From Pacificimonas aurantium (lineage in GTDB: Bacteria; Pseudomonadota; Alphaproteobacteria; Sphingomonadales; Sphingomonadaceae): a stretch of 64,000 bases of DNA. The stretch covers positions 1,054,001 to 1,118,000 of the forward strand of contig NZ_JAGSGB010000002.1 of the NCBI RefSeq assembly GCF_020092905.1. Direction: 5' to 3'. The notes below the pieces were generated by a model, which saw nothing but the letters and a program-made list of their open reading frames with translations, was not told the DNA's origin and ran no database searches. The translations under genes were made by a program, and so were the position numbers. Shown here in pieces: positions 6,539-54,188 of the stretch. The stretch's first letter is position 1, and each line of letters begins with the position of its first letter.

Positions 6539-6558
6539 TCACGGCCAGAGCAGGGTCG

Positions 6559-7623
6559 CTATTCGACGGTCAGGTCGAGCGTGATCGTGGTGCCCGTAAT
6601 GCCGCGGTCTACGGAGAGCTTGCCGTTCATTTCGCCGACCAGCCCCTTGACGATGCGCCCGCCCAGTCCGCTGTCGTCGGGCCAGTTCATACCCTCAGGC
6701 AGACCGCTGCCGTCGTCGCTGACGCGCATACGCACGACGCCATTGGACAACTGCTTCAGTTCCATCGTGACCAGGCCGTTCCGCTGGTCGCGAAACGCAT
6801 GCTGCAGCGAATTGGTCAGCAGTTCAGAGGCGATGAGCCCGAATTGACCAGCCTGCTGCGCGCTGACGGTGATTTCGTCCGCATCGATGTTGACGCGGAT
6901 GGATTCGCGCCCGTCCAGGTGGCTGACAGCACTTGCCACCCGGCTGACATAGGCACCCAGCGGGACAACGTCGGAGTTGTGGCGAGCGACCCCGGCATCG
7001 GACAGTTCCTGATAAAGAAGCTGCAGGGTCTCCACGCGGCGCGCCAGCGTCTTGTAGTCGCTGCCCGCTTCGTCGGCCCGAGCCTGCATCCGGATCATTC
7101 CGACGATCATCGACAGGTGATTCTTCACGCGGTGCTGGAGTTCCTCCAGCGTCCGCCCGCTTTCGTCCTTTGAATATTCATGCGGCGGCCCCGGAAGCTG
7201 GTGCTGGATACCGATGAAGTAGGCCAGTTCGCCATGTTCGTCGAAGAGCGGCGTGATCAGCAGGCGGTTCCAGAACCCCTCACCGCTGGCGCGGTAATTG
7301 TAGATGTCCTCGTTGATTTCCTCGCGCTTCGCGATGGCCTTACCGATGCGCTTGACTGTTTCGGGATCGGTATCTTCACCCTGAAGGAAGCGGCAATTGC
7401 GACCGACACAGGCTTCCTTGGCATAGCCCGTGATGCGGCAGAATGCCGGAGAAACGTAAACGAGAGGATTGTCGTCCAGCCGAGGGTTCGTGATGGCGAG
7501 GGCAAACGGAAGAACCGAAATGGCCGCCCCCTCGAAATCGCCTTCCAGAATATCGCTGGAAACCGGTTCCTCGATAACCTTGCTACTCACACTCAAGCCC
7601 TCGTCATTCGCAGCCACTGTCAA
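6559..7623 (-). CDS. LOV-domain blue-light sensor histidine kinase (HWE/HisKA_2 type)
   Basis: A soluble photoreceptor kinase of 354 residues. The N-terminal PAS domain carries the LOV flavin signature GRNCRFLQG, with the adduct-forming cysteine at residue 77. The kinase core begins with ELQHRVKNHL (phospho-acceptor His164), the form typical of HisKA_2/HWE kinases, followed by the ATP-binding segments ELLTNSLQHAF and DDGSGLPEG. There are no membrane segments. Blue light would form a cysteinyl-FMN adduct that changes autophosphorylation; in related alphaproteobacteria such kinases feed the PhyR-NepR-EcfG general stress response. That pathway link is family knowledge; no response regulator gene is adjacent. 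Confidence 0.93.
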   Translation of the reverse strand: MTVAANDEGLSVSSKVIEEPVSSDILEGDFEGAAISVLPFALAITNPRLDDNPLVYVSPAFCRITGYAKEACVGRNCRFLQGEDTDPETVKRIGKAIAKREEINEDIYNYRASGEGFWNRLLITPLFDEHGELAYFIGIQHQLPGPPHEYSKDESGRTLEELQHRVKNHLSMIVGMIRMQARADEAGSDYKTLARRVETLQLLYQELSDAGVARHNSDVVPLGAYVSRVASAVSHLDGRESIRVNIDADEITVSAQQAGQFGLIASELLTNSLQHAFRDQRNGLVTMELKQLSNGVVRMRVSDDGSGLPEGMNWPDDSGLGGRIVKGLVGEMNGKLSVDRGITGTTITLDLTVE

Positions 7624-7687
7624 CGCCCCGGACAGGGACCCCCGCTCCGATTAAGTGCGATTCGCCGACAATTTCAATAAAGCCTGT

Positions 7688-8587
7688 TTATGCGGCAGGT
7701 TGGCGCACCTTATTGCGAGCGCCTAGCGCTATCAAAAGACCCGAAACCGTAAGTATTGCGCCGATAATCGCCGGCAAGGTCCAGACATAGCCTTCAAGCG
7801 CGGTCGAAATCGCCATCGCGACGAAGGGAACGATCACGCCGGAATAGGCAGCACGCGCCGGCCCGACTTCGCGAATGACGTTGAAATATACGACGAACGC
7901 GATGGCCGAGGCAAAGACGGCCAGATAGACGACCCCGCCGATATAGACGGGGGTCAACTCGATCACCGGCGGTCCGGCGACCAGCCAGGCAGCGCCGACG
8001 TCGAAGATGGCGCCGTACAGCATTGCCCAGGCAAGCATCGAGGTCATGGCGTAAGAGCGGATGAACGGAGACGCCTGCATCACGTTCGCAGCCGATGCGG
8101 ACAAAACGGCAAGCACCGTCATGGCCAGGCCCCAGCCCAGTTCGGGCCCGCCGCTGAGCGCGGCGATTTCCTGCCGGAAGAGAAGCGATACGCCGACTAT
8201 TCCCATCGCCGCCCCGGCGATGAAATTCCGGTCGACCCGGTGACGGAAGAAGATCCAAGCAAGCACAGCGTTCGGAACGATAAGCAGCGCGAACGCCACC
8301 GCGATCAGGCCGGACGTGACCACCTCGCTGGCCTGATAGACGAAATTGAAATTGGCGAAGAACTGGAACAGGCCAACGCCGAGAAAGAAGATGTGCGCCC
8401 GCGGCGGAAACGCAAGCGAACGCCGCCGGATCGCGGCGATCGCGAACATGATGACGCTCGCGACGATGAAGCGGTAGGCCACCGACCATTCGACGGGGAC
8501 GACGCCAAGCTGCGTCTTGATCACATACCAGGTCGTTCCCCAGACGAAGGTGGGAATGGCGAGAAGCAGCAGCTGGCGCGCAGTCAC
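7688..8587 (-). CDS. EamA/DMT-family transporter
   Basis: An inner-membrane drug/metabolite transporter of 299 residues with about ten hydrophobic helices and two EamA repeats; an early WGTTWYVIK-type helix and a second repeat beginning around GGPELGWGLAM are visible. The start is a GTG (MTARQLLLLAIPTFVWG) five bases after the threonine aldolase stop, consistent with one transcript. The solute is unknown; DMT exporters next to amino acid enzymes often export amino acids or their derivatives, which is only suggestive here. Confidence 0.9.
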   Translation of the reverse strand: MTARQLLLLAIPTFVWGTTWYVIKTQLGVVPVEWSVAYRFIVASVIMFAIAAIRRRSLAFPPRAHIFFLGVGLFQFFANFNFVYQASEVVTSGLIAVAFALLIVPNAVLAWIFFRHRVDRNFIAGAAMGIVGVSLLFRQEIAALSGGPELGWGLAMTVLAVLSASAANVMQASPFIRSYAMTSMLAWAMLYGAIFDVGAAWLVAGPPVIELTPVYIGGVVYLAVFASAIAFVVYFNVIREVGPARAAYSGVIVPFVAMAISTALEGYVWTLPAIIGAILTVSGLLIALGARNKVRQPAA

Positions 8588-28676: not shown

Positions 28677-29525
28677 ATGAGTGAGCAAACAATAGGAAAG
28701 TTAAAGCAACTGGAACAGGTCCTGCCTGAGGGCCTGCTCGTCGATGCCGCGTGGCTTTCCGCTCAAGGCTACTCAACCTCGCTGCGCACCAAATATGTTG
28801 CCTCTGGCTGGCTCGAGCAGCCGGCACGCCGAGTGTATCGGCGCCCTCGCGGACAGCTTGGCTGGCAGCAGGTGGTCGTCTCGCTGCAGACGCTTCTCGG
28901 CTATCGTCTCACCGTTGGCGGCCGGACAGCCCTCGAGCTGCAAGGCTATGCCCATTACCTCTCACAGGATCGTTCCGAGATCCATCTTCACGGTCCAGCG
29001 AAGCCGCCCAGCTGGCTCACGACGCTCCCACTGAAGGAACGGTTCGTGTATCACAACAGCTCGCCGCTCTTCGGGGCCGACCTGGAGGATGTCAGCTTTC
29101 CTTCCCTCGTTTCGGACCGCGCACCTGATGCGCGAGTTGCGGGATCTTTTCAGGACGCCGGATTGCGCGCTCTGCCCTGGGGGCAATGGGATTGGCCGTT
29201 GACGGTATCGACGCCCGAACGGGCGGTTCTCGAACTTCTCGATGAGCTGCCCCAGCGTGAGAGCTTCGATCAGGTCGACGTGCTGATGGAAGGTCTGAGC
29301 GATCTTGCGCCGAGGCGGCTCCAGAAGCTGCTTGTCCGCTGCCGCAGTGTGAAGGTGAAGCGCCTGTTCTTCTTCTTTGCCGATCGGCATCGCCATGCAT
29401 GGCTCAAGCAAGTCGACCGGACCGCAATCGAACTGGGTTCGGGCAAGCGCATGCTGGTCAAGGACGGCAGGTACGATCCGACCTACGAGATCACTGTCCC
29501 CAAGGAACTGGCCGAGGCGTATTGA
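28677..29525 (+). CDS. abiEi: AbiEi-type antitoxin/transcriptional repressor
   Basis: The antitoxin of a type IV toxin-antitoxin pair, 282 residues. An N-terminal winged-helix domain (LLVDAAWLSAQGYSTSLRTKYVASGWLEQPARRVYRRP, residues about 20-57) is the AbiEi DNA-binding region; the larger C-terminal domain counteracts the toxin. The family represses its own promoter through inverted repeats, one of which lies just upstream. No Shine-Dalgarno precedes the ATG, and the -10 box is very close, so the message may be leaderless. The stop overlaps the toxin start by one base. Confidence 0.9.
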   Translation: MSEQTIGKLKQLEQVLPEGLLVDAAWLSAQGYSTSLRTKYVASGWLEQPARRVYRRPRGQLGWQQVVVSLQTLLGYRLTVGGRTALELQGYAHYLSQDRSEIHLHGPAKPPSWLTTLPLKERFVYHNSSPLFGADLEDVSFPSLVSDRAPDARVAGSFQDAGLRALPWGQWDWPLTVSTPERAVLELLDELPQRESFDQVDVLMEGLSDLAPRRLQKLLVRCRSVKVKRLFFFFADRHRHAWLKQVDRTAIELGSGKRMLVKDGRYDPTYEITVPKELAEAY

Positions 29526-30439
29526 TGGCATTTGCGGACACTTACCGAAATCAGGTCGCATTACTGATCCGCACACTGCCTTCGGTGGTTGCGGAAGAGT
29601 GCTTCGCGATGAAGGGTGGCACGGCGATCAATCTGTTCGTGCGCGACCTGCCGCGCCTCTCGGTCGATATCGATCTTACCTACCTGCCAGTGCAGGACCG
29701 CGCGACCTCGCTTGCAACGATCAATGCGGCGATGGCGCGCATCGCTGAGCGCATTACCGAGTCAGTCCGCGGCTCCCGTGTCGCTTCGTCACGCTCGCGC
29801 GAGAATGTGATCACTAAGCTCGTCGTCCGTGGCGATGGCGCGCAAATCAAGATTGAGGTGACGCCGGTCCTGCGTGGCTGCGTGTTCGAGCCCGCCATAC
29901 GGTCGGTCTCCCCCAGCGTGGAAGATGAATTCGGCTTTGCCGAAATGCGGATCGTCTCGTTTCCCGATCTCTATGCCGGCAAGATTGTCGCCGCCCTCGA
30001 CCGTCAGCATCCACGCGATCTGTTCGACGTGCGTGATCTTCTGGCGAATGAAGGCATCGACGATGCGCTGCGTCGGGCCTTCCTCATCTACCTGATCAGC
30101 CACGACCGCCCCATGGCCGAAGTTCTGGCGGTGCGGCGCAAAGATATTGCGGTAGAATTTGACCGAGGTTTCGTCGGCATGACGCGACAACCGGTCGAAC
30201 TCGAGACCCTGCTTGCGGCGCGTGAAGCACTGATTGCCGACATCGTCGGAGAGATGCCCAATGCGCACCGCCAATTTCTGTTGGCGTTCGAGCGCGGCGA
30301 ACCCGACTGGCCAGCCCTCAACCTGGAGGCCGGCGCCGAACTGCCGGCCGTGCGATGGCGGCAACAAAACCTCGATGGTTTGAAGGCTGAGAAACGCCAG
30401 GCACTGGTGCGGCAGCTTGAAGAGGTTCTGGCAACATAG
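29525..30439 (+). CDS. abiEii: AbiEii-type nucleotidyltransferase toxin
   Basis: A 304-residue toxin of the AbiEii/MenT-like nucleotidyltransferase family. The catalytic core MKGGTAIN (near residue 27) followed by SVDIDLTY (near 45) is the G-G-x-x ... D-x-D site; the next acidic strand is KIEVTP near 115. In characterised relatives the enzyme adds nucleotides to tRNA or otherwise uses GTP, halting growth during phage infection. One-base overlap with abiEi gives coupled expression. It is convergent with arsH. Confidence 0.9.
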   Translation: MAFADTYRNQVALLIRTLPSVVAEECFAMKGGTAINLFVRDLPRLSVDIDLTYLPVQDRATSLATINAAMARIAERITESVRGSRVASSRSRENVITKLVVRGDGAQIKIEVTPVLRGCVFEPAIRSVSPSVEDEFGFAEMRIVSFPDLYAGKIVAALDRQHPRDLFDVRDLLANEGIDDALRRAFLIYLISHDRPMAEVLAVRRKDIAVEFDRGFVGMTRQPVELETLLAAREALIADIVGEMPNAHRQFLLAFERGEPDWPALNLEAGAELPAVRWRQQNLDGLKAEKRQALVRQLEEVLAT

Positions 30440-38057: not shown

Positions 38058-38723
38058 TCATCCGCCGAGCGGACGCTCGTCGGTTTCCGGAGCACCGGTT
38101 GTTCGGCGGTATCGCCCCTTCCGCCGCGATCCGACATAGCAGATCAGGTTCGCCGTTTTCAGCGCGGCGATGTCGCGGCGCGCGGTTTTGAGGCTGACTT
38201 GCCACAAGGCCATGATCTCGCTGGCGCCGCAGCGATCGCCTTCGGCGAGTCTGGCCAGAAACCAGTATTGGCGCTCATTGAGTTCAGCCCGATCAGGGTC
38301 ATTCATAGGGTCGCGATTAGAGTCATCTTTAGGGTCATTTGGCCGGTGATCGGCAGGTCTCCTGCCCCCGGCAAACTCGCCGACGACATAGGCGCCCCTG
38401 GCCGCCGCCAGCGCATAGCGATCGACTGGCCCTGACAGTTTGGCGGCCACCGGTCCCTCGATGATCCCGAGGACGAAAGCGCGAATGACGGGTGAGGACA
38501 CCACGAGACGCAAGAAAAACACCGTATCGGGACCGTGTTGGCCCGAAAGCCAGTGTTTGACTGTGCGCTCGCTGGCATGGGTCTGGCGCATGATCTGCTT
38601 GACCGCGCGGTGGCTGTCGCCGTGCTCCTTGCGCAGCAGTTCGGCCATGGTTTGCGCATAGATCTGGCGCGTGGCCAGGACACCTTTCCATGGCGGTAAT
38701 TTCCTGCCCTTTTTCTGCAACAT
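38058..38723 (-). CDS. HTH DNA-binding protein, probable regulator of the recombinase cassette
   Basis: A 221-residue basic protein, not assigned to a named family. An N-terminal helix-turn-helix-like segment (RAVKQIMRQTHASERTVKHWLSG, about 38-60) and a C-terminal winged-helix-like segment (RCGASEIMALWQVSLKTARRDIAALKTANL, about 165-195) flank a charged linker. It is divergent from the recombinase, and the shared 112-base promoter region holds a perfect 31-base palindrome, so autoregulation plus recombinase control is likely. An excisionase-like role is the alternative. Confidence 0.7.
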   Translation of the reverse strand: MLQKKGRKLPPWKGVLATRQIYAQTMAELLRKEHGDSHRAVKQIMRQTHASERTVKHWLSGQHGPDTVFFLRLVVSSPVIRAFVLGIIEGPVAAKLSGPVDRYALAAARGAYVVGEFAGGRRPADHRPNDPKDDSNRDPMNDPDRAELNERQYWFLARLAEGDRCGASEIMALWQVSLKTARRDIAALKTANLICYVGSRRKGRYRRTTGAPETDERPLGG

Positions 38724-38782
38724 CTTCCGGTCTCTCCGCAGTTAAACTGGTCGAGGTGCGGAAGCGGCGGCGAGGCCACGTG

Positions 38783-38813
38783 CTGAGGCGGTCGGTTGCC
38801 CGGACCGCCTCAG
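38783..38813. promoter_or_regulatory. 31-base perfect inverted repeat between HTH regulator and recombinase
   Basis: CTGAGGCGGTC (38783-38793) and GACCGCCTCAG (38803-38813) with a 9-base spacer, about 20 bases before the recombinase start. It could be the operator of the divergent HTH protein, or the recombination half-site pair (attP-like), which serine recombinases often keep beside their own gene. Confidence 0.6.
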
Positions 38814-38835
38814 GTAAAGCAGGAAAGGGCAAGGT

Positions 38836-40404
38836 TTGCCGAGATGGGATCTTAACGACGACAACCGATCCGAGCCGGCACCTCTGGTGCGCGCGGCCGA
38901 ATATGTCCGCATGTCGACCGATCATCAGAAATATTCGACTGAAAGCCAATCCGACGCGATCCGGCAATATGCTGAAGCGCGCGGGATCGAGATCGTGCGC
39001 ACCTATGCCGATGCTGGCAAGAGCGGGCTCAAGATCGAGGGCCGCGATGCGCTCAGGCAGTTGATCGAGGATGTTGAGGCCGGCACGGCCGATTTCACAT
39101 TGGTGCTGGTCTATGACGTCAGCCGCTGGGGCCGGTTCCAGGACGCCGACGAGAGCGCTTACTACGAATATATCTGCCGGCGCGCCGGCATCGCGGTGCA
39201 ATATTGCGCCGAGCAATTCGATAATGATGGCAGCCCGGTCTCGACCATCGTCAAAGGCGTCAAGCGCGCCATGGCCGGCGAATATAGCCGCGAGCTTTCG
39301 ACCAAGGTGTTTGCCGGGCAAGGCCGGCTGATCGAAAAGGGATTTCGCCAGGGCGGCCCGGCCGGGTTTGGTTTGAGGCGCACGCTGATCGACGAACATG
39401 GCGCGATCAAGGGGGTGCTGGTCCGCGGCGAGCACAAGAGCATCCAGACCGACCGGGTGATCCTCACGCCTGGGCCGGACGAAGAGGTCGCGCTGGTGCG
39501 CGATGTCTACCGCGCCTTTGTCCATGAGGGGCGAAGCGAAAGCGTGATCGCGGCCGATCTCAATGCGCGCGGCCTTACAACCGATCTTGGCCGGCCCTGG
39601 ACGCGCGGCACGGTCCATCAGCTGCTGATCAATGAGAAATATGTCGGCGACAATGTCTGGAACCGCCGCTCGTTCAAGCTCAAGAAGAAGCGGGTGCACA
39701 ACGCGCCCGAGATGTGGATCCGCGCCGACGGCGCGTTCGAGGCGATTGTCGAGCGCGAGCTGTTCGAGGCGGCACGCGCGATCATCGCGGCGCGCTCGTT
39801 CCGCTTGAGCGATGAGGAGATGCTTGAGGCCCTGGCCGAACTTTACCAGCGTCAGGGCATGCTTTCGGGGATCATCATCGACGAATGCGAGGCCATAGCC
39901 TCGAGCAGCGCTTACAGTTCACGGTTCGGCAGCCTGCTCAGGGCTTATAGCCTGGTCGGGTTCACCCCGGAGCGGGACTATCGCTATGTCGCGATCAACC
40001 GCGAATTGCGCCAGCTTCATCCTGGCATCCTGCGCGAGGTGCTCGACGGTCTGCAGGCAAGCGGCAGCGAGGCGTGGCAGGAGGACGAGAGCGACCGGGT
40101 GATCGTCAACAGCGAATTCAGCGTCTCGGTGGTGATCGCGCGCTGTTTCGAAACCCCGACGGGGCTTTTGCGCTGGAAGCTGCGTTTCGACACCTCGCTT
40201 GCCCCTGACATTACCGTGGTCGTGCGCATGGACCGCGCCAATCGCGCCCCGTTCGACTACTACCTGTTCCCGCGCCTCGAGAAACTGGCCGACAGGGTCC
40301 GGCTGAGCGAAGACAATGCGCTGGCCCTCGACGCCTACCGCTTCGATGACCTCGACCTGCTCTACACCATCGCCGCTCCTATCCCCTTACCGGAGGCTGC
40401 CTGA
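38836..40404 (+). CDS. Large serine recombinase without zinc ribbon
   Basis: A site-specific recombinase of 522 residues. The N-terminal resolvase domain has AEYVRMSTDHQ with the nucleophile Ser27 and Arg25, and DVSRWGRFQD near 95 with further active-site arginines. The recombinase domain (DNA binding) covers about 165-310 (GRPWTRGTVHQLLINEKYVGDNVWNR). The C-terminal 200 residues lack the CxxC zinc ribbon that helps large serine recombinases tell att sites apart. The start is a TTG after GGAAAGGGCAAGG. It overlaps the following ParB-like gene by one base. It probably mobilises or inverts this cassette. Confidence 0.9.
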   Translation: MPRWDLNDDNRSEPAPLVRAAEYVRMSTDHQKYSTESQSDAIRQYAEARGIEIVRTYADAGKSGLKIEGRDALRQLIEDVEAGTADFTLVLVYDVSRWGRFQDADESAYYEYICRRAGIAVQYCAEQFDNDGSPVSTIVKGVKRAMAGEYSRELSTKVFAGQGRLIEKGFRQGGPAGFGLRRTLIDEHGAIKGVLVRGEHKSIQTDRVILTPGPDEEVALVRDVYRAFVHEGRSESVIAADLNARGLTTDLGRPWTRGTVHQLLINEKYVGDNVWNRRSFKLKKKRVHNAPEMWIRADGAFEAIVERELFEAARAIIAARSFRLSDEEMLEALAELYQRQGMLSGIIIDECEAIASSSAYSSRFGSLLRAYSLVGFTPERDYRYVAINRELRQLHPGILREVLDGLQASGSEAWQEDESDRVIVNSEFSVSVVIARCFETPTGLLRWKLRFDTSLAPDITVVVRMDRANRAPFDYYLFPRLEKLADRVRLSEDNALALDAYRFDDLDLLYTIAAPIPLPEAA

Positions 40405-41303
40405 TGTCTGCCGTGCGTTCCAGCGGTGTCGAAATGATCCCGATTTCGCGGATCACGGTGCTCAACTCGCGGGCGCGCAACAAGCGCCAGCACCGCGAGA
40501 TCGTCAACAATATCGAGGCCATCGGGCTCAAGCGCCCGATCACGGTGGCGCGCCATAACGGTCCGGGCGGTGCGCGTTATGATCTGGTCTGCGGCGAAGG
40601 CAGGCTCGAAGCGTTCCAGATGCTCGGTCAGAGCGAGATCCCGGCGGTGGTGATCGAGGCCAGCGAGAGCCAGTGCCTGGTGATGAGCCTGGTGGAAAAC
40701 ATTGCCCGCCGCACGCCGCGTCCGATCGACATCATGCGCGAGATCGGCGCCTTGCGCGCACGGGGCTATAACGACACGGCGATTGGCGAAAAACTCGGGG
40801 TCGGCGCGTCCTGGGTCAACATGATCGCTTCGCTGCTCGAACGCGGCGAGGAGCGTCTGGTCGCCGCGGTCGAAACCGGCGTTATCCCGATCACGCTGGC
40901 GATGGAGATTTCCAAGGCCGAGAGCGAGGAAGCCCAGACCCTGCTCCTCGACGCCTATGAGACCGGCAAGCTCAGAGGCAAGAAGCTGGCGGCAGCGCGG
41001 CGTATGCTCGACATGCGCATGCGTGCGCAGGGCAAGGGCCTGCCTTCGGGGCGACTGGGCCGCAAGGGCAGCGGCAGGCGGATGACCGCCAACGATCTCA
41101 TGCAGGTCTATCAGCGCGAGGCGGAAAAGCAGCGGCTCCTGGTCAAGAAGTCCGATTTCACGCAGACGCGGCTCTTGTTCATTGTCGAGGCGCTCAAAGA
41201 CCTGCTCACCGACGAAAGCTTCCTTAACCTGCTCAGAGCCGAAGGCCTGGCGACGATGCCGCGCGCGCTGGCGATGCGGATTGCGGGAGAGCACGATGGC
41301 TGA
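40404..41303 (+). CDS. ParB N-terminal domain protein (recombinase-associated)
   Basis: A 299-residue ParB/Spo0J-fold protein. The ParB nucleotide-binding (CTPase) domain covers about residues 10-110, with CGEGRLEAFQML as the GExR motif and VMSLVENIARR after it; a helix-turn-helix follows (DTAIGEKLGVGASWVNMI, about 125-145). There is no adjacent parA. The one-base overlap with the recombinase and eight-base overlap with the next gene show a single operon. A role as accessory DNA-clamp for recombination, or partition of an excised element, is inferred. Confidence 0.88.
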   Translation: MSAVRSSGVEMIPISRITVLNSRARNKRQHREIVNNIEAIGLKRPITVARHNGPGGARYDLVCGEGRLEAFQMLGQSEIPAVVIEASESQCLVMSLVENIARRTPRPIDIMREIGALRARGYNDTAIGEKLGVGASWVNMIASLLERGEERLVAAVETGVIPITLAMEISKAESEEAQTLLLDAYETGKLRGKKLAAARRMLDMRMRAQGKGLPSGRLGRKGSGRRMTANDLMQVYQREAEKQRLLVKKSDFTQTRLLFIVEALKDLLTDESFLNLLRAEGLATMPRALAMRIAGEHDG

Positions 41304-42225
41304 ACGGATCGACGATCCTGGAGAGCGCATCCATCAGGCGTTCGAAAGCCAGTTCGTGACCATACCCGTTGCAAGCATCGTGCCGCTCAAGACGCTGCCC
41401 GACGGCGCGCGCGAAGGCCGAACCTTCGCGCAGGTGCTTTCCTCGATCAAGGCGGTCGGACTGATCGAAGCCCCGGCGGTCATGGCCGATACGGCCAAGA
41501 CCGGATCCTACTTCCTGCTCGATGGGCATTTGCGGATCGAAGCGCTGAAAGAGCTTGGTATCGAACAGGTCGAATGCCTGGTCGCCACTGATGACGACAC
41601 CTATACCTATAACAAGCGGGTCAACCGGATACCGCCGATCCAGGAGCACCGAATGATCGCCCGGGCCATGGATCGCGGGGTGGCGGCGACCGATATTGCC
41701 GAGGCGCTCAACCTGCAGGTGGAATCGGTCATCCGGCGCTTTCGCCTGCTCGAGGGCATCAGCCCCGAAGCGGCCGAGATGCTGAAAGACACGCCCTGCT
41801 CGATGAAGGTGTTCGACATTTTGCGGCAGATGTCGGCGGTGCGGCAGATCGAGGCGGCGGACCTGATGATCGGACAGAACAATTTTTCGATCATGTTCGC
41901 CCGCGCCCTTCGCGCGGCGACCCCGGACAATCAGCTGGCGACAGCCAAGAAAGGTAAAGGCGCCGGCATACCGACGCCGTCCGGCCAGCAGATTGCGCGC
42001 ATGGAGCGCGAGCTGGCGGCGCTGCAGACACAGGTCAAATCGGTCGAGGAAACCTATGGCATCGACAATCTGCATCTGACGGTGGCACGCGGCTATATCG
42101 CCAAGCTCCTGGCCAATGGCCGGGTGGCGCGCTGGCTCGCCAGCCACCGCCAGGAATATCTCGGCGAATTCGAAAAGATTGCCGAGATCGACACGCTGGC
42201 ACCGATCGCCGAGCAGGACGCCTGA
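41296..42225 (+). CDS. ParB/RepB-like partition protein (recombinase-associated)
   Basis: A 309-residue protein with a ParB-type N-terminal domain (IPVASIVPLKTLP; FLLDGHLRIEALKEL near residue 80, where DGHLRIEA replaces the usual GxRRxxA), a helix-turn-helix (GVAATDIAEALNLQVESVIRRFRLL) and a C-terminal region like that of plasmid RepB proteins. It starts eight bases inside the preceding ParB-like gene. Two different ParB-fold proteins behind a serine recombinase and no ParA is an unusual set. Confidence 0.83.
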   Translation: MAERIDDPGERIHQAFESQFVTIPVASIVPLKTLPDGAREGRTFAQVLSSIKAVGLIEAPAVMADTAKTGSYFLLDGHLRIEALKELGIEQVECLVATDDDTYTYNKRVNRIPPIQEHRMIARAMDRGVAATDIAEALNLQVESVIRRFRLLEGISPEAAEMLKDTPCSMKVFDILRQMSAVRQIEAADLMIGQNNFSIMFARALRAATPDNQLATAKKGKGAGIPTPSGQQIARMERELAALQTQVKSVEETYGIDNLHLTVARGYIAKLLANGRVARWLASHRQEYLGEFEKIAEIDTLAPIAEQDA

Positions 42226-42368
42226 GCCAGCCAATGGGGACCCGGACCCGATAAGCGCGGGGACCATGGGAGACGCCGCACGCTGGGGCGGATCGAGCAT
42301 GGTGGTGGGAATGGCGGCGAACCCGCAGGAAGCCCACCAGGCTGGCCGCCATCAGGTCCAGCCGTCCC

Positions 42369-42391
42369 GCGGAAGCTCCACCAGCTTCCGC
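42369..42391. repeat. Perfect 9-base inverted repeat (hairpin 1)
   Basis: GCGGAAGCT, loop CCACC, AGCTTCCGC. It is seven bases upstream of a larger hairpin, about 145 bases after the RepB-like stop. It could be a terminator or a protein-binding site of the recombinase cassette. Confidence 0.6.
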
Positions 42392-42398
42392 ACCACAG

Positions 42399-42433
42399 AT
42401 CGGCGTGCCGGAGACGCCATCCGGCACGCCGAT
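42399..42433. repeat. Perfect 14-base inverted repeat (hairpin 2)
   Basis: ATCGGCGTGCCGGA, 7-base loop, TCCGGCACGCCGAT, followed by a short T-containing stretch. It is stable enough for an intrinsic terminator, but a 14-base perfect dyad is also what a recombinase crossover or ParB-type site would look like. Confidence 0.6.
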
Positions 42434-42626
42434 TTCCATCGATTCCAGAGCGTTCGGCTTTTGGCTGCATGCCGGTGCGGCTGGCGACGTGAACTTGGAC
42501 GATGCCCGCAAAAAAGTGGCATTCTTCACCCTGCTGAGATAACGTCCCGCGAACCAGATGATCGGTCTTAAGAAGATCTGAGGCAAATATAGTCTAGCGC
42601 GGCCGTTCAAGAGAAAGGAGGCGAGC

Positions 42627-43637
42627 ATGTCGACGAAGCAAATACTCGCGCTCCTGAATTCGCACATCGACGGCGATGAAGATCAGCTCCTGTCGATCGC
42701 CTTGCAGATCGCGGCTCAGGAAGCCCGTCAGGGCCGGGCCGAAGACGCCGACAAGCTCAAGCGCCTTGTTCAAAAGGCGCGCGATCAACGCCGCACAGGC
42801 TCTCCTGCTGGCGGTCAGACACCCATCCCGCTGGCGCGTCCTCGGGGTGAATTGCAGGGCTTGGTCGAGAGCGCCTATCCCAAGGTTACGCTGTCGAGCA
42901 TGGTGCTGTCTGATGATCTCGCCAAGCGGCTTGAGCGGATCGTTCGTCAGCAGCAGGAACGTGTGACCCTGCGCGAGCACGGCCAGACCCCGACGACGCA
43001 TATGCTTCTGGTCGGCCCGCCCGGGACCGGCAAAACGATGACCGCCTCGGCCCTGGCGGGCGAATTGCGACTGCCTCTCTTCACCGTGCGCCTTGAAGCC
43101 CTGTTCAGCCGCTTTTTCGGCGAAACCGCGGGCAAGATGCGCCTTCTGTTCGATCAGATCGCACAGACGCGCGGCGTCTATCTACTCGACGAATTCGATG
43201 CGATCGGCGCGCGCCGGGGCGATCCGAACGATGTTGGTGAAATCCGCCGCGTGCTCAACTCGGTTCTGGCCTTCATGGAAGAGCCCAACTCGACCGACAG
43301 CCTTGTCCTGGCGGCGACCAATCATGTTGAGATTCTGGACGAGGCTCTGGCGCGCCGCTTCGATGAGGTGATCGAGTACACGCTGCCGGACACCGTCTCG
43401 GCGCGGGCCATTATCGAACGGCGCCTGGGTAAGTTCAAATTCGCGGCGAAGGAATGGGGCGCGCTCGAAAACGCGCTGGGCGGCCTCAGCCAGGGCGAAT
43501 TGGTTCGGGCGGCCGATGCGGTCGTCAAGGATGCCATTTTGGAGGGGGCGTCGAAGGTTTCACCAAAGGCACTGCGAGATGCCTTGGAAAACCGGCAGAC
43601 ATTGAGGGGCAAGTTCCGTCGTCAATCCAGCCGTTAG
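42627..43637 (+). CDS. AAA+ ATPase (subtilase-associated)
   Basis: A 336-residue classic AAA ATPase of the FtsH/katanin-like core type. A helical N-terminal region of about 85 residues precedes the motor; Walker A is LLVGPPGTGKTMTAS near residue 130, Walker B VYLLDEFDAIG near 187, sensor 1 LAATNH, and the arginine finger is in ALARRFDEVIEY. It has no protease domain of its own, but the next gene, 51 bases away, encodes a subtilase. The pair would work as a chaperone-protease. An AGGAGG ribosome site lies six bases before the ATG. Confidence 0.9.
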   Translation: MSTKQILALLNSHIDGDEDQLLSIALQIAAQEARQGRAEDADKLKRLVQKARDQRRTGSPAGGQTPIPLARPRGELQGLVESAYPKVTLSSMVLSDDLAKRLERIVRQQQERVTLREHGQTPTTHMLLVGPPGTGKTMTASALAGELRLPLFTVRLEALFSRFFGETAGKMRLLFDQIAQTRGVYLLDEFDAIGARRGDPNDVGEIRRVLNSVLAFMEEPNSTDSLVLAATNHVEILDEALARRFDEVIEYTLPDTVSARAIIERRLGKFKFAAKEWGALENALGGLSQGELVRAADAVVKDAILEGASKVSPKALRDALENRQTLRGKFRRQSSR

Positions 43638-43688
43638 GCAGGCTCCGCCAACGGATAGACTGGAACGCGAACGAACGAGCAGGATTTT

Positions 43689-46232
43689 ATGGCGGAGCCA
43701 GACAATTTCGATACGAGAGACCGTCCGCATATTCCCATCGACGCTTTCCGTGAAACGGCAGCTTACGAACGTCCACCACGCAATCAGGAACGTAAACCGC
43801 TTCGCGACGACTATGCGGCGCACGCAGCCCGGCTTCTCGACCAACTTGCGGTAGCGCTCGGCGATCTTCCCCTACCCGGGGACGACGCACGGATCAGCCT
43901 CCAGGGCCTGAAACCCGGTACGATCGTCGAGATCGCGACTTTGCCGCCGGCCGAAACCTCCCGCACCAAGGCCGTCAAAGTTCCGACCGCACTCGAATTT
44001 CCCACGCAAGACGTGGTGGTGCTGCGCTCGGAGCGAAATGAGGATCGCACCGAAAGTGCTCTGCTCTTTGTGCCGGACGATGCACGCATGTTCCTGCGCG
44101 GCCGCATCAGCGACTATGGGCGAGACCCGGGCAACCAGCGACGGCCCGATGTCGACCGCTTCGAGGTCGTTGAAGAAGTCCGCACACTCGATACGGCATC
44201 GCTGTTCACCGGCGATGTGGACCTGGCCGCACCGGACCTCGTATGGTGGGAATTATGGGTCCGCCAGCCGGTCGTCCTGGCGGATCGCCTGGTTCAGGCG
44301 GCGCGCAACGCCGGTATCGACGTTCACGACGACCGCCTGATCTTTCCCGATACGACCGTTCTGTTTCTTCATGGCGCTGCCGCAACGGTTGCGATGTTTG
44401 CGATGCGCGTGCCGGGCGCAATTTCCGAGATCCGCCGGGCGACGGGAACGATCGAACCGTTTCTCGATCGCGGTGACGCTGGGGTCGGTCAACATGATTG
44501 GGTCGCGGAGCTGGCGCAGCGGGTCACGGCGCCATCACAGGACGCGCCGGTGGTCTGCACGCTCGATACCGGTGTTGCCGCTACCCATCCATTGATCGCC
44601 CCCGGCCTTCGCGGCGCGTGGGCTTACGACGCCGAATGGGGTGTCGATGACCACGAGCCCCATGGCGGTCACGGTACGCCACTGGCCGGGCTTGTTCTTT
44701 ATGGCGATCTCGAGCCGCTCATGAACGATGCGCGCGCGGTGACACTGACCCATGGTGCAGAATCCATGAAGCTGTTGCCGCCGCATGGTTTCCCGCCGAC
44801 CAAGCCGCCCAGTTACGGCGTCGTTACACAAGGCGCCGTCAGCGCGGTGGAGATCGAACAGCCGGACAAGCTCCGCAGTTTTTGTATCGCGAACTCCGCG
44901 ACCGATTTTCCGCCCAGCCGCCCTTCGACCTGGAGCGGTGCCCTCGATCAGGTCGCCGCCGGAGCAATGCCCGGCGAGGGTGACGAGAATGGTCCTGCGT
45001 CAGAACGTCCGAAGCGCCTGGTGGTTGTCGCAACCGGCAATGTATCCGGGGGTATGGCCATCGACGTTCTTCCCTCACAGCCGCTGGAAGATCCCTCGCA
45101 AAGCTGGAATGTTCTGACCATTGGCGGCTTTACCCGCAAGGAACAACCGCCAGCGCCGCCGCCTGTGCTGAATGCGGCCGTACCGGCAAACCATCGCAGT
45201 CCCTTCAGCCGCGGCTCGCAATCACTTCCCGACGATCTCACGCCCATCAAACCCGAGGTATTGTTCGAGGCAGGCAACATGATGTCGGACGCCGCCGGCT
45301 TTTGTGGCTGGGATCCGGCGGTTTCGCTGCTCTCTGCAGGCTCTGATATTGCCGCCGCACCCTTGGTCCCGTTCTGGGCAACCAGCGCCGCTGCCGGTCT
45401 GGCTGGCAATTTCATCGGACAGTTGCAATCCGCCCTGCCTGACCTCTGGCCTGAAACGCATCGTGCGCTCACTGTGGATTCGGCGCACTGGCCCGAGCCG
45501 ATCCGTAAGAATTTCATTGGCCGGGGCGCGCATTGGAAAACCGGCTCGAAAGCTGAAAAGCAGCAGCATCTGCGCGAATTCGGATATGGCGTGCCAGATA
45601 TTGGCCGCGCGATCCTGTCGGCCCGCAATGACGCGACGTTGGTCGCTCAAGCCGAAATTCAGCCCTTCGCCATCGGCGCCGATGGGCGAACCGGCGTCTT
45701 CAACGAGATGCATTTCTACGACCTGCCCTGGCCGAAAGCGGCATTGGAGCAGCTGGAAAATGAAATCGTCACGATGAAGGTCACGCTGTCCTATTTCATC
45801 GAGCCGAACCTCACCGGCAAGGCGGCGACACGCCCCGACACCTATCGCTCCTTCGGTCTTCGCTTCGACATGAAAAAGCGTCTGGAGAGCAAGGCCCGTT
45901 TCCGCAGCCGGATCTCAGCGAGTCAGGCGAAGGACGGCACCGAAACCGAAAGCGAGACCAGTTGCTGGCTGTTGGGACCGAAGGCGATCCAGGCCGGCTC
46001 GCTGCATTGCGATTTGTGGCGGGGCCGTGCCATCGATCTGGCCGGGCATGACGCCATCGCCATTTTTCCAGTCGGAGGCTGGTGGAAATCGCATGCCGGG
46101 CAGAAGCGGATTGAGGCCAAGGCCCGCTATTCGCTGGTCATCTCCATTTCCGCGCCCGGTCAGGGGGTCGATCTCTATTCGGAGATCAACACGCTCGTCG
46201 AAGCGAAGGAGCTTGAAGTTCTGCTCGGCTGA
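43689..46232 (+). CDS. S8-family subtilisin-like serine protease (AAA-associated)
   Basis: An 847-residue cytoplasmic subtilase without a signal peptide. Catalytic triad: aspartate in CTLDTGVAATHP near residue 290, histidine in PHGGHGTPLAG near 328, serine in FWATSAAAGLAG near 565 (ATSxA instead of the usual GTSMA). A region of about 250 residues precedes the protease fold, and about 230 residues follow it. Such proteases coupled to a AAA ATPase recur in genomic islands; the target protein is unknown. Activation during infection, followed by cleavage of a host factor or a toxin, is one inferred scheme. Confidence 0.88.
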   Translation: MAEPDNFDTRDRPHIPIDAFRETAAYERPPRNQERKPLRDDYAAHAARLLDQLAVALGDLPLPGDDARISLQGLKPGTIVEIATLPPAETSRTKAVKVPTALEFPTQDVVVLRSERNEDRTESALLFVPDDARMFLRGRISDYGRDPGNQRRPDVDRFEVVEEVRTLDTASLFTGDVDLAAPDLVWWELWVRQPVVLADRLVQAARNAGIDVHDDRLIFPDTTVLFLHGAAATVAMFAMRVPGAISEIRRATGTIEPFLDRGDAGVGQHDWVAELAQRVTAPSQDAPVVCTLDTGVAATHPLIAPGLRGAWAYDAEWGVDDHEPHGGHGTPLAGLVLYGDLEPLMNDARAVTLTHGAESMKLLPPHGFPPTKPPSYGVVTQGAVSAVEIEQPDKLRSFCIANSATDFPPSRPSTWSGALDQVAAGAMPGEGDENGPASERPKRLVVVATGNVSGGMAIDVLPSQPLEDPSQSWNVLTIGGFTRKEQPPAPPPVLNAAVPANHRSPFSRGSQSLPDDLTPIKPEVLFEAGNMMSDAAGFCGWDPAVSLLSAGSDIAAAPLVPFWATSAAAGLAGNFIGQLQSALPDLWPETHRALTVDSAHWPEPIRKNFIGRGAHWKTGSKAEKQQHLREFGYGVPDIGRAILSARNDATLVAQAEIQPFAIGADGRTGVFNEMHFYDLPWPKAALEQLENEIVTMKVTLSYFIEPNLTGKAATRPDTYRSFGLRFDMKKRLESKARFRSRISASQAKDGTETESETSCWLLGPKAIQAGSLHCDLWRGRAIDLAGHDAIAIFPVGGWWKSHAGQKRIEAKARYSLVISISAPGQGVDLYSEINTLVEAKELEVLLG

Positions 46233-46234
46233 TA

Positions 46235-46251
46235 CCGAAACTGGTTTTCGG
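46235..46251. terminator. Short hairpin between convergent subtilase and mcrC
   Basis: CCGAAA, loop CTGGT, TTTCGG, in the 36-base gap between two convergent genes, with A/T-rich flanks on both sides. It is a possible bidirectional terminator. Confidence 0.5.
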
Positions 46252-46268
46252 ATATTTGGCCAGCGCAA

Positions 46269-50815: not shown

Positions 50816-53800
50816 TCAAACGTCTCCAAATTCAGGCAATGCGCAAAGCGTGTTGACGAGGCGCATCTGTTCAACGGTGTTGCATTTTGCTTCGCGCAGC
50901 CGCGGTGCGCCGAAGACGAGCGCCAGGCTTTTGGCGCGCGAGACAGCGACATTGATGCGGTTGAGCGAGAACAGGAAATCCATGCCGCGCGGGGTTTCCT
51001 CGACCGAGGAGGCGGTCATGGACACCAGGCAGACGGGTGCTTCCTGCCCCTGGAACTTGTCGACCGTGCCGACACGGATGCCAGCGGGCAAGGCGTCCTG
51101 CAGGGCATTGACCTGCGCATTATAGGGCGCAACGACGATGATATCGGCGGGCTCAAGGGCGCGCGTTGTCCCATCCTTGTCGGTCCAGCTTCCCGAGAGC
51201 AGATCGTCGATCGCCGCCTCAATGGCAGCGACTTCCTCGGCTGCGATCTGGGCATTGCCCTCATGGATGACCGGCGCCCAGAACGCGCCAGCTACAGGAA
51301 AGCCCGTCCCGCGGACTGCCTGGACGGCTGTATCGGGCGCGCTGTTGAGACGGCCTTCATAGACCTGCTGCGAAATAAACCCGCAGACATCGGGATGCAT
51401 GCGGCGAGAGACCGGCAGGAAGATGCCGCGATCGGGCGGGATGGTGGCGTGCTCGCCCAGCATCCACTCGAGACAGGAAAGGTTGGCCGGATCGGGATGA
51501 GCGCCCTGGATGACCTGCGGCAATTGCCGCGGATCGCCGACCAAAACGATGTTGCGAGCGCAGCGCCCCATGGCGACCATATTGGCCAGCCCCACTTGCC
51601 CGGCTTCGTCGACGAAGAGCCAGTCGAGGGCCTGCTCGTGCTCCGACCGGGCAAAAAAGAAGGCGGTGCCGCCGACCACATGGGCGCGGCTCCATAAGGA
51701 ATCGTCATTGGCCGTCGAGCGGATGACGCCGAAGCAGTTGTCCGGATAACCGTCTTCGCCGCTGCTGACCTTGTGCCCGATGCACAGGCCCGGGACAGGG
51801 TCACCATCATCTTGCGCGGCAAGGCATCCCATCAGCACATTGCGGATGGCCTCATGGCTGTTCGAGGCCACGCCAACGCGGTGCCCCTGGCGCACCAGCG
51901 CAAGGATTGCCCGCGCGGTGACATAGGTCTTGCCGGTTCCCGGCGGCCCCTGGATCGGCAGCACGGTGCCATCCATGGCGGCGATCGCCGCGATCGTGCC
52001 GGCCAAGGGATCGGCGCCATCAAGCAGATCGGCGCGCGGTCCCGTCACCAGACGCGGGGCCGTGCGCGCCAGCAGATCATCGAGCGCCGTCAGTCGGCGC
52101 ACGCCGCATTGATCGTCGATCACATCGCGCAGGGCCGCGGCAATGACATCCGTATTGAGCGGCCAGTCGGGGTGGAGCGTCAGGCGATCGGTCAAAAGAT
52201 GCGCCTTGGCCGCCCCCGCCTTGATCGCGATGATCCGCTCACTGCGGTCGAGCTCTTCGATGCTGACAGTGGCCGGTGGCCCGTCGATGACCGGGACCGT
52301 CGCTTTGCGGCCGGCCCGCAGCTTGGTCTCCTGAAGCGGAAAGCGATAGCGGCGCAGCACCGAGCGTTTGACGGGTTCTGCCGGACCTATGGCTTCCAGA
52401 CCGGCCAGTGCATCGAGATCGTCGATCAGCTCGTCCTCGTCCTTGCCAGCGCTGTCGAAAACCGCCCATTGCGCCGGCTTGGCCTCGCGCTTGTGGAACA
52501 GGCCGAGGTTGAACAACATGTCTTGCCGCTCCTGCGGCAGACCGGATGCGGCAAGCCTCGCGCGCAAGCCTTGTGTATCGGCGTCCTCCTCGACTTCCTT
52601 GTCGCCGGCATCCACCGCAAGTACCGGCCAGGGCGCGGCGGGACGGATGCTCACCAACCAGTCGCGCAGCTCCTCAGTCGAGATACAGTCGATGCGGTTA
52701 TAGTCTTCGATCTCGTCGAGGATCGTTTGTTCGCCGGTTTCGCGCCAGCGCTCATAGGCAACGACCGAACCGCCGGCGGTTTTGACCTCACCTTCGCGCA
52801 CCCGGCCATAGAAGGCTTCCATCGACTTGATCGAATAATTGGCTTCCGAGCCGATGAGAGCGCCGCGCACCACCGCGAAAAGATCGACAAAGCGCCGCTC
52901 GCGCAGCAGGCGATCGAGAAAGGCCTCACCGATTCCATATTGGGCGGTCAGCCGCCGCAAGGCGGTGATCTCATAGGGCGCATAGTGATAGATGCGCGCT
53001 TCGGGATAGGCTGCGAGCCTTTGCCGGAAAAACTCCAGAAGGTCCGCCAAAGCCCGCGCTTCGGCGCCGTGATCATGCGCCCAGAAAGCCTTGAACTGGC
53101 CATCGAACCAGACGCCGTGGAGATATTCGAGGCCGCCTTCGTAGTGCGGATCGCCCTCGATATCGTAGAAGAGATCGCCCGGCTGCGGCGCGGGCAAAAG
53201 ATCAAAGCCCTTGCCGGATTCGGCCTCGCGCAACTCGAAGGCCGGCGCCCCTGTCTTGCGGGCGTGCTGCAGGCGCGCCTGTGTCACCAGCCGCGCCCGG
53301 GTGGTCTCGGCCATGCCGCGGATGGGATGATCGAGACCGGCCAGCCGCTCCATGGTGGTGATGCCAGCCGCCTCGAGCTTCTTGACCTGGGTCCGGGTAA
53401 TGTTGGCGACGTTGAACAGGCTGTCCTCAGCCTGCCACTGGCTTTCGCAGTGATCGCCCCAGCGGCAAAGCCCACAATCGGCACAGGGGATCGGCCGGGT
53501 CGGCGCCGGGTTTTCCAGGAAAGCCTCGAGCCGCTGACGCGCCATGCGCGCATAGGCCTGATAGTCCGCGAGCCGTAGCTGCGCCCGGCTGCCATCGCCG
53601 AGTTCGACATGGGCAAATTCAGGGGCGACGCCCTGAATTTCCGTCAGCAAATCCGAGTAGAGCACCAGTTGCAGCACATGTTTGGGATGGGGCCGCCGCT
53701 TGAGCTTGGTGTCGGTGACTTCGTAGCTGAAGGGGCCGAGATCGGACGGGCGCTCGACGCGCTCGAGAAAGTCCGACCAACCGCCCCAATTGTCGCCCAG

Positions 53801-54109
53801 CAGCGCCCCCTGAAAGACGATCTGCGGACCGCTTGCCAAAGCCGCCCGGGTTGCCTGCGCATTTTCGGCAAGGTCGGACCGGTCGATCTCGATCACCGAC
53901 ACATCCGATGCCTTGAGCTTGGCCAGGTGAGCCGCCTCGTGGGCATCGCCCTGCTTCTGGAGCAGCGCCGCATCCTCGGTATCTTCGCGCGGAACTGGCC
54001 CCTCGCCACGCATATAGGTGAGATCGAGCGCGGTCGCGTGAGCGCAGCCCATGAACCGCATCAGATCCGATGCGGACAAGAGTATCCGATCCCCCTCAAT
54101 AGTTCGCAT
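50816..54109 (-). CDS. Cas4/RecB-like nuclease, RNase H-like domain and UPF1-type helicase fusion (TM0106-like)
   Basis: A 1097-residue protein. The N-terminal RecB-type nuclease has GWSDFLERV, then EVTDTKLKR (catalytic D-x-K) near 145, and a cysteine cluster CADCGLCRWGDHC near 210 as in Cas4 4Fe-4S nucleases. A middle DEDD-like exonuclease region starts at LFYDIEGDP near 315, with YHYAPYE and DYNRIDCISTEEL. The C-terminal SF1B helicase has Walker A IQGPPGTGKTYVTA near 715, WLFVDEAGQV near 840 and VDKFQGQEAP near 1025. I chose the ATG at 54109, preceded by a GGGGG ribosome site; another ATG lies at 54166. It heads the leftward operon with mcrB and mcrC. Confidence 0.88.
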   Translation of the reverse strand: MRTIEGDRILLSASDLMRFMGCAHATALDLTYMRGEGPVPREDTEDAALLQKQGDAHEAAHLAKLKASDVSVIEIDRSDLAENAQATRAALASGPQIVFQGALLGDNWGGWSDFLERVERPSDLGPFSYEVTDTKLKRRPHPKHVLQLVLYSDLLTEIQGVAPEFAHVELGDGSRAQLRLADYQAYARMARQRLEAFLENPAPTRPIPCADCGLCRWGDHCESQWQAEDSLFNVANITRTQVKKLEAAGITTMERLAGLDHPIRGMAETTRARLVTQARLQHARKTGAPAFELREAESGKGFDLLPAPQPGDLFYDIEGDPHYEGGLEYLHGVWFDGQFKAFWAHDHGAEARALADLLEFFRQRLAAYPEARIYHYAPYEITALRRLTAQYGIGEAFLDRLLRERRFVDLFAVVRGALIGSEANYSIKSMEAFYGRVREGEVKTAGGSVVAYERWRETGEQTILDEIEDYNRIDCISTEELRDWLVSIRPAAPWPVLAVDAGDKEVEEDADTQGLRARLAASGLPQERQDMLFNLGLFHKREAKPAQWAVFDSAGKDEDELIDDLDALAGLEAIGPAEPVKRSVLRRYRFPLQETKLRAGRKATVPVIDGPPATVSIEELDRSERIIAIKAGAAKAHLLTDRLTLHPDWPLNTDVIAAALRDVIDDQCGVRRLTALDDLLARTAPRLVTGPRADLLDGADPLAGTIAAIAAMDGTVLPIQGPPGTGKTYVTARAILALVRQGHRVGVASNSHEAIRNVLMGCLAAQDDGDPVPGLCIGHKVSSGEDGYPDNCFGVIRSTANDDSLWSRAHVVGGTAFFFARSEHEQALDWLFVDEAGQVGLANMVAMGRCARNIVLVGDPRQLPQVIQGAHPDPANLSCLEWMLGEHATIPPDRGIFLPVSRRMHPDVCGFISQQVYEGRLNSAPDTAVQAVRGTGFPVAGAFWAPVIHEGNAQIAAEEVAAIEAAIDDLLSGSWTDKDGTTRALEPADIIVVAPYNAQVNALQDALPAGIRVGTVDKFQGQEAPVCLVSMTASSVEETPRGMDFLFSLNRINVAVSRAKSLALVFGAPRLREAKCNTVEQMRLVNTLCALPEFGDV

Positions 54110-54188
54110 TGCTGCCCCCTCGTCGAACGCAATCTCCAACAAGACTTGCATCTCGACAGATTGCACGTTCAGCCATAGCGTGCGTGGG

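Follow-up and report, generated by a model that had tools for sequence, protein, structure and literature searches.

The window analyzed here is a stretch of 64,000 nucleotides from Pacificimonas aurantium (contig NZ_JAGSGB010000002.1), and within it lies a compact module in which a large serine recombinase gene and two genes encoding ParB-fold proteins are directly followed by a structured RNA (Table 1). The initial annotation described the three genes as an operon with overlaps of one and eight bases and a divergent helix-turn-helix (HTH) gene beside it, and the gene coordinates and the Pfam match of the HTH gene agree with this description. The conserved noncoding stretch with RNA structure at 42234-42433, directly after the RepB-like gene, was absent from that annotation, as was the dense defense-type island (28677-62631, by Pfam and PADLOC) that surrounds the module. 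A search of one collection confirmed 286 recombinase homologues, of which the best 80 (61-98% identical) were kept as loci. The order recombinase, ParB-like, RepB-like is retained in all 80, as far as each contig extends, and because the same order recurs in so many loci the gene set is not a chance arrangement.

Table 1. Features of the module and of the adjoining cargo block, in window coordinates.
Feature	Coordinates	Strand	Evidence and remarks
Divergent HTH regulator, DeoR-like HTH near the C terminus	38058..38723	-	PF08220 2.2e-5
Divergent intergenic region, inverted repeats	38724..38835	.	alignment of 26 rows
Large serine recombinase without zinc ribbon, start codon provisional	38836..40404	+	PF00239 2.5e-24, PF07508 2.3e-23; phrog_95 integrase 1.9e-61
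ParB-like protein 1 (ParB_N + RepB)	40404..41303	+	PF02195 9.1e-12, PF07506 2.4e-22; phrog_3951 1.1e-33
ParB/RepB-like protein 2, ATG at 41296	41296..42225	+	PF07506 1.7e-44; phrog_31451 2.6e-52
Structured RNA core, 5' pseudoknot and further stems	42234..42366	+	covariation; R1 143.3 bits (sequence among the model's 31); strand from wobble pairs
Terminal inverted repeat P5, 14-nt arms, 7-nt loop, terminator-like	42399..42433	+	commonest homology stop between close copies
Exchangeable cargo block: IetA 42627-43637, IetS 43689-46232	42434..46258	+	PADLOC IetA 1.1e-69, IetS 1.3e-26; other cargo here in relatives

The recombinase operon and the RNA that follows it

In an alignment of the sequences following the RepB-like gene, the noncoding stretch is far more conserved than the genes. 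Across 31 diverse loci, the mean identity of the RNA core is 82.6%, whereas the three genes average 66.3, 58.9, and 59.3% at the DNA level and 39-43% at third codon positions. The consensus fold of these loci contains 35 pairs, including a pseudoknot, and 97.5% of its cells are paired; slid versions of the same fold are at most 49.1% paired. Both sides have changed in 17 of the 35 pairs, and cells with a double change number 82 vs. 25.3 in shuffles (0 of 500 shuffles as high). When copies from other classes are added to the alignment, 21 of 27 pairs have changed on both sides (85 cells vs. 25.3). Since G-U wobble pairs exceed A-C combinations (61 vs. 11, and 42 vs. 10), the RNA is assigned to the plus strand. 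No Rfam 15 family scores above its gathering cutoff for the window RNA, the whole window, or the copies at loci L163 and L153. On the evidence of its sequence, 42234-42433 is strongly supported as a structured, pseudoknotted RNA outside the Rfam families. Single-nucleotide indels and the paired changes rule out a coding sequence here, and the hypothetical proteins annotated across the RNA in plasmid records (L113, 8033-8230; L115, 7863-8354) are probably spurious. A function as a cis-acting leader of the cargo is also ruled out, because the first right-hand gene is mostly convergent with the RNA (42 of 62 loci; codirectional in 13 and absent in 7).

The initial annotation also characterized the proteins, and it is supported in part. 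The recombinase lacks a zinc ribbon, its Pfam matches at E ≤ 0.01 being confined to PF00239 and PF07508. Its structure model (mean predicted local distance difference test [pLDDT] score 74.6, predicted template modeling [pTM] score 0.45) best matches serine integrase complexes (E 1e-12) with low TM-scores of about 0.26, and in PHROGs it falls with phage integrases, while both ParB-like proteins best match phage families of unknown function. That its two partners have a ParB fold is supported by Pfam domains, by pocket motifs conserved in 18 aligned copies of each (CGxGRxEA and ENxxR in protein 1), and by the model of the RepB-like protein (mean pLDDT 72.5, pTM 0.48), which matches ParB with a cytidine triphosphate (CTP) analogue, Noc, and KorB; the ParB_N match of this second protein (0.0074) is under the family cutoff. 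The CTP-binding ParB fold of ParABS systems is recognized here by domains, motifs, and predicted fold alone. The suggestion of the initial annotation that ParB clamps might take over the control exerted by a zinc ribbon, or segregate an excised circle, is a hypothesis. In agreement with that annotation, Pfam finds no ParA or replication initiator among the 19 window proteins scanned. The intergenic region upstream of the recombinase is a putative promoter/operator-like region, and its inverted repeats are seen in most of the 26 aligned rows, the most distant ones excepted. Some of the 80 loci show only a weak HTH match or none.

Joint occurrence of the RNA and the module

A covariance model (R1) was built from 31 of 63 RNA-bearing sequences, the window sequence included. 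With this model a full-length RNA is found behind the RepB-like gene in the window and in 62 of 74 testable loci, the other six of the 80 (L032, L038, L048, L057, L079, and L110) ending at contig edges. It starts between -4 and +69 nucleotides from the RepB-like stop codon in these 62 loci, and its distances follow those of the recombinase (Mantel r 0.724, 63 rows, 0 of 1000 permutations). In a class-wide sample of 385 genomes, with a recombinase threshold of E ≤ 1e-80, the RNA is present in 15 genomes, the recombinase in 21, and both in 10; in the genomes with only the RNA (G151, G217, G233, G263, and G413), the RepB-like gene adjoins it, in whole or in part. Relatives of the recombinase are found in Sphingomonadales, Hyphomicrobiales, Rhodobacterales, Acetobacterales, and others. 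The closest, up to 98% identical, is in Camelimonas, a genus of Hyphomicrobiales, which, given the sphingomonad host of the window, suggests a recent transfer between the two lineages. The 3.35-Mb genome of the window holds one copy of the RNA. In two modules without the RNA, the DNA to the right of the RepB-like gene contains 3' fragments resembling a tRNA (L051 at about 13680 and L170 at about 5700), for which no matching full tRNA occurs among the loci fetched; a third, L080, has a tRNA-Ala gene there (7649-7724).

The RNA extends beyond the Alphaproteobacteria. A phylum-wide sample of 398 genomes contains diverged copies in 11 genomes of other classes, and a model built for these copies finds 27. 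At 13 of the 16 non-alphaproteobacterial loci fetched, a protein of one of two tail clusters lies within 1 kb of the RNA and faces it, each cluster being assigned to tails from the PHROG tail-family match of one member. A copy outside the fetched set (G572:C424) lies 1.2 kb before recombinase fragments. Many of the non-alphaproteobacterial copies (L153-L168) have hairpins with a GGATTCCC...GGGTCGAGTCC-like motif immediately before and after the RNA core. In L154, about 6 kb encoding an nSTAND1/FGE-sulfatase protein lies between two diverged copies in the same direction (455-588 and 6544-6670). Among plasmids, 10 records have the RNA, and the module is present in three of the four inspected. 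No match to the RNA was found in GenBank phages. In IMG/VR, 12 contigs were found by the RNA pattern and 10 by the recombinase; module and RNA occur together there where the contig reaches, often with tail genes a few kilobases farther on. The exceptions are L203 and L204, distant recombinases on viral contigs (45-46% identity) with no ParB or RNA match adjoining.

Cargo and junctions beside the RNA

The island around the window's module includes an AbiE pair (28677-30439), TIR-DUF1883, a UvrD-like helicase, IetAS, an McrBC-family gene beside an AAA gene, an RNase H/helicase gene, a WYL regulator, a sacsin-like gene, and a HEPN-SNF2 gene. The neighbors of the relatives vary and include core genes, conjugation genes, and restriction or defense families such as Zac, Hma, and DISARM/BREX-type helicases (133 of 153 distinct families were scanned, leaving out 20 families under 130 amino acids, and PADLOC covered 74 right-hand families only). 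Homologous cassettes at one fixed locus would have contradicted the mobile, recombinase-centered element proposed initially; the flanks differ between genomes, and the module lies in differing flanks, islands, plasmids, and prophage edges, as such an element predicts. Five loci (L037, L056, L062, L063, and L064) have guaA, a tyrosine integrase, and AlpA ahead of the module. Some Rhodobacteraceae contigs begin at a tRNA-Met gene just left of the module; this tRNA-Met(CAU) lies at the left ends of L087, L091, and L200, with a Fic-family gene between it and the module region. A right-hand cargo operon with genes of about 1000, 600, and 411 codons recurs in L037, L039, L042, L045, L046, L060, and L062-L064 and, from PADLOC matches among the neighbors, is possibly the Zac defense system.

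The window, L032-L036, and L085 have modules 90-98% identical and different flanking DNA. In the simplest series of right-hand states, the RNA adjoins the helicase gene of 50816-54166 in the oldest; an McrBC-type block then stands between RNA and helicase in the window, L033, and L036, and lastly IetAS is added in the window and SLATT cargo in L033 and L036. Another cargo is present in L034, L035, and L085. The series suggests, for these seven loci, that the newest cargo lies nearest the RNA. Apart from the RNA, no repeat common to the cargo borders was noticed by eye in these near-identical loci. L035 has a 253-bp 3' part of the HTH gene (336-588) left of its full module. Remnants of the 3' half of the RNA lie about 530 bp right of the full RNAs in L039 (14073-14124) and L046 (14052-14103).

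The right junction was followed in 156 close pairs at least 88% identical, 55 of which share at least 250 nucleotides beyond the RNA core and 101 of which diverge. In the diverging pairs, homology ends within 6 nucleotides of the P5 hairpin end in 54 (an end placed by a simple search and unsure in some loci), just after the P4 stem in 28, and elsewhere in 19. On the left side, 52 of 113 pairs stop near the HTH gene: 38 of these stops lie inside the gene, 31 of them 7-60 nucleotides from its end and 7 deeper, while 6 lie within 6 nucleotides of the stop codon and 8 beyond it. Judged by where homology ends, both ends of the module are junctions, the right end being the sharper, and the pattern fits site-specific joining at the RNA end.

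Interpretation and comparison with known systems

The gene cluster probably serves to transfer DNA between bacteria and the viruses that infect them. The reading that we favor, with somewhat less than even confidence, is that the locus is a recombination module on mobile elements with an RNA of its own, the 3' end of which is the junction for cargo. In such a module, the recombinase would do the cutting and the ParB-fold proteins would load as clamps near the RNA-encoding DNA. The RNA, as a protein-bound transcript or as its encoding DNA, would control synapsis or direction and mark the site of cargo joining; its transcription and its binding to protein would be part of the scheme. We infer a role for the RNA in recombination. 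Guiding to a target is an unlikely role, because elements at different locations carry almost the same core, and a scaffold or switch is more likely. A further step, in which recombinase, two CTP-clamp proteins, and pseudoknotted RNA form the ribonucleoprotein of an RNA-dependent serine recombinase that joins cargo beside the RNA gene, is conceivable and distinctly doubtful. No description of RNA-dependent site-specific recombination by a serine recombinase was found in the literature searched.

A number of observations weigh against the favored reading. The module occurs without the RNA in 12 of the 74 testable loci (L040, L043, L044, L049, L050, L051, L053, L055, L061, L065, L080, and L095, the last retaining a remnant). 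In the class-wide sample, 11 of the 21 recombinase-bearing genomes have no RNA match, also under a relaxed search of the fetched stretches (one of them too short); eight of these hold the module without the RNA, G062 ends at a contig edge, and G236 and G418 have recombinases less than 45% identical and no ParB match in the fetched stretch. To place the 12 RNA-less loci on the tree of the recombinase takes 6 changes, of which well-supported branches force no fewer than 4. Because RNA-bearing rows lie on both sides of the midpoint root, the absence looks secondary, and the RNA has apparently been lost from the module several times. Conversely, the RNA stands without the module in 15 of the 16 non-alphaproteobacterial loci, L153 alone having both, and on a Roseomonas plasmid. 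Folding of single sequences gives weak evidence (z -1.74 for the window and -2.5 to +0.69 for three other loci). The junction pairs are not independent, and all 28 stops at the P4 stem involve L088, L097, or L102; the stops may also mark the end of selected sequence, with flanks moved by homologous recombination inside the module. The duplicated crossover site predicted by the initial annotation was not found, as the ends of nine viral records, possibly fragments, share no direct repeat longer than 14 nucleotides, and the 25-nucleotide tRNA-Met 3' end beside the module occurs once in L092, the sole complete chromosome searched. Among 17 viral records, which may be fragments, three have a tyrosine integrase, present also in the guaA islands, and five have another serine recombinase (G797, G800, G803, G807, and G810); enzymes of either kind can do the integrating. 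The module recombinase as the sole phage integrase is rejected in view of these other integrases and of L203 and L204.

The same data can be read in other ways. The RNA gene could be a landing site borne by the elements, as tRNA genes are for phages, with other integrases inserting at its 3' end and the module one neighbor of several. The tail-cluster proteins facing it in most non-alphaproteobacterial loci would be expected, as would the other integrases within the same prophages, the 3'-half remnants in L039 and L046, the stop of homology at the hairpin end in close pairs, and the two copies flanking nSTAND1-protein cargo in L154. These two copies, however, clearly differ in sequence, no attachment repeats were found at the ends of the nine viral records, and in 62 alphaproteobacterial loci the RNA starts within 69 nucleotides of the RepB-like stop and diverges in step with the recombinase; we regard this explanation as rather unlikely. 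The RNA could also be a separate small RNA of mobile elements or phages, serving in host takeover or anti-defense and merely traveling with the module, as its presence beside tail genes without the module and its mostly convergent right-hand gene would allow. Its tight position after the RepB-like gene and its joint inheritance with the recombinase make this improbable. We give similarly little credence to a maintenance module, in which the ParB-fold clamps, together with an RNA that acts in trans or primes replication, would maintain an excised or plasmid form, and multimers would be resolved by the recombinase. The RNA-bearing plasmid records, most of those inspected carrying the module, speak for it, as does the RNA-based replication described for extrachromosomal mycobacterial prophages (PMC7157519). 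Against it stand the lack of ParA or Rep among the scanned window proteins and another ParB-family gene about 3 kb away on the module-bearing plasmid pNIN3.

Should the RNA contribute to recombination, it would, as far as is known, give serine recombinase systems their first RNA component and could explain how a recombinase without a zinc ribbon is controlled. If it plays no such part, it still marks the junction at which defense genes are swapped and offers a handle for finding such islands. In either case, it is a pseudoknotted RNA without an Rfam match, carried by mobile elements across more than one class of bacteria.

Several known systems resemble the module in part. Mycobacterial prophages with RNA-based extrachromosomal replication and parABS (PMC7157519) likewise combine ParB-type proteins and RNA in temperate phages; they differ in that ParA is not among the 19 window proteins scanned here and a replication role of the module is hypothetical. 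The large serine integrases (phiC31, Bxb1, and others) share the catalytic and Recombinase domains, the best structural matches (TM about 0.26), and the PHROG integrase family, whereas the module recombinase has no zinc ribbon family match and is adjoined by two ParB-fold proteins and a structured RNA. Large serine integrases work with recombination directionality factors, and no known one was recognized beside the module. They also use attB/attP sites that share a short core, the direct repeats at the ends of the nine viral records being no longer than 14 nucleotides. The CTP clamps ParB, Noc, and KorB and the RepB of repABC plasmids are alike in their ParB_N and PF07506 domains, pocket motifs, and fold; here, two such proteins stand in tandem in an operon with a recombinase, and ParA is not among the window proteins scanned. 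In the IS110 bridge RNA system, the gene of a DEDD recombinase also lies next to a structured RNA, whose variable guide loops match target and donor; the module has a serine recombinase instead, and the core of its RNA hardly varies between loci whose flanks differ, its 3' hairpins being variable. Integrons have a tyrosine integrase, IntI, and repeated cassette recombination sites, unlike the serine recombinase and the single RNA copy in the window's genome, and the module resembles them in carrying variable cargo beside a recombinase, the newest nearest, as far as the seven loci suggest.
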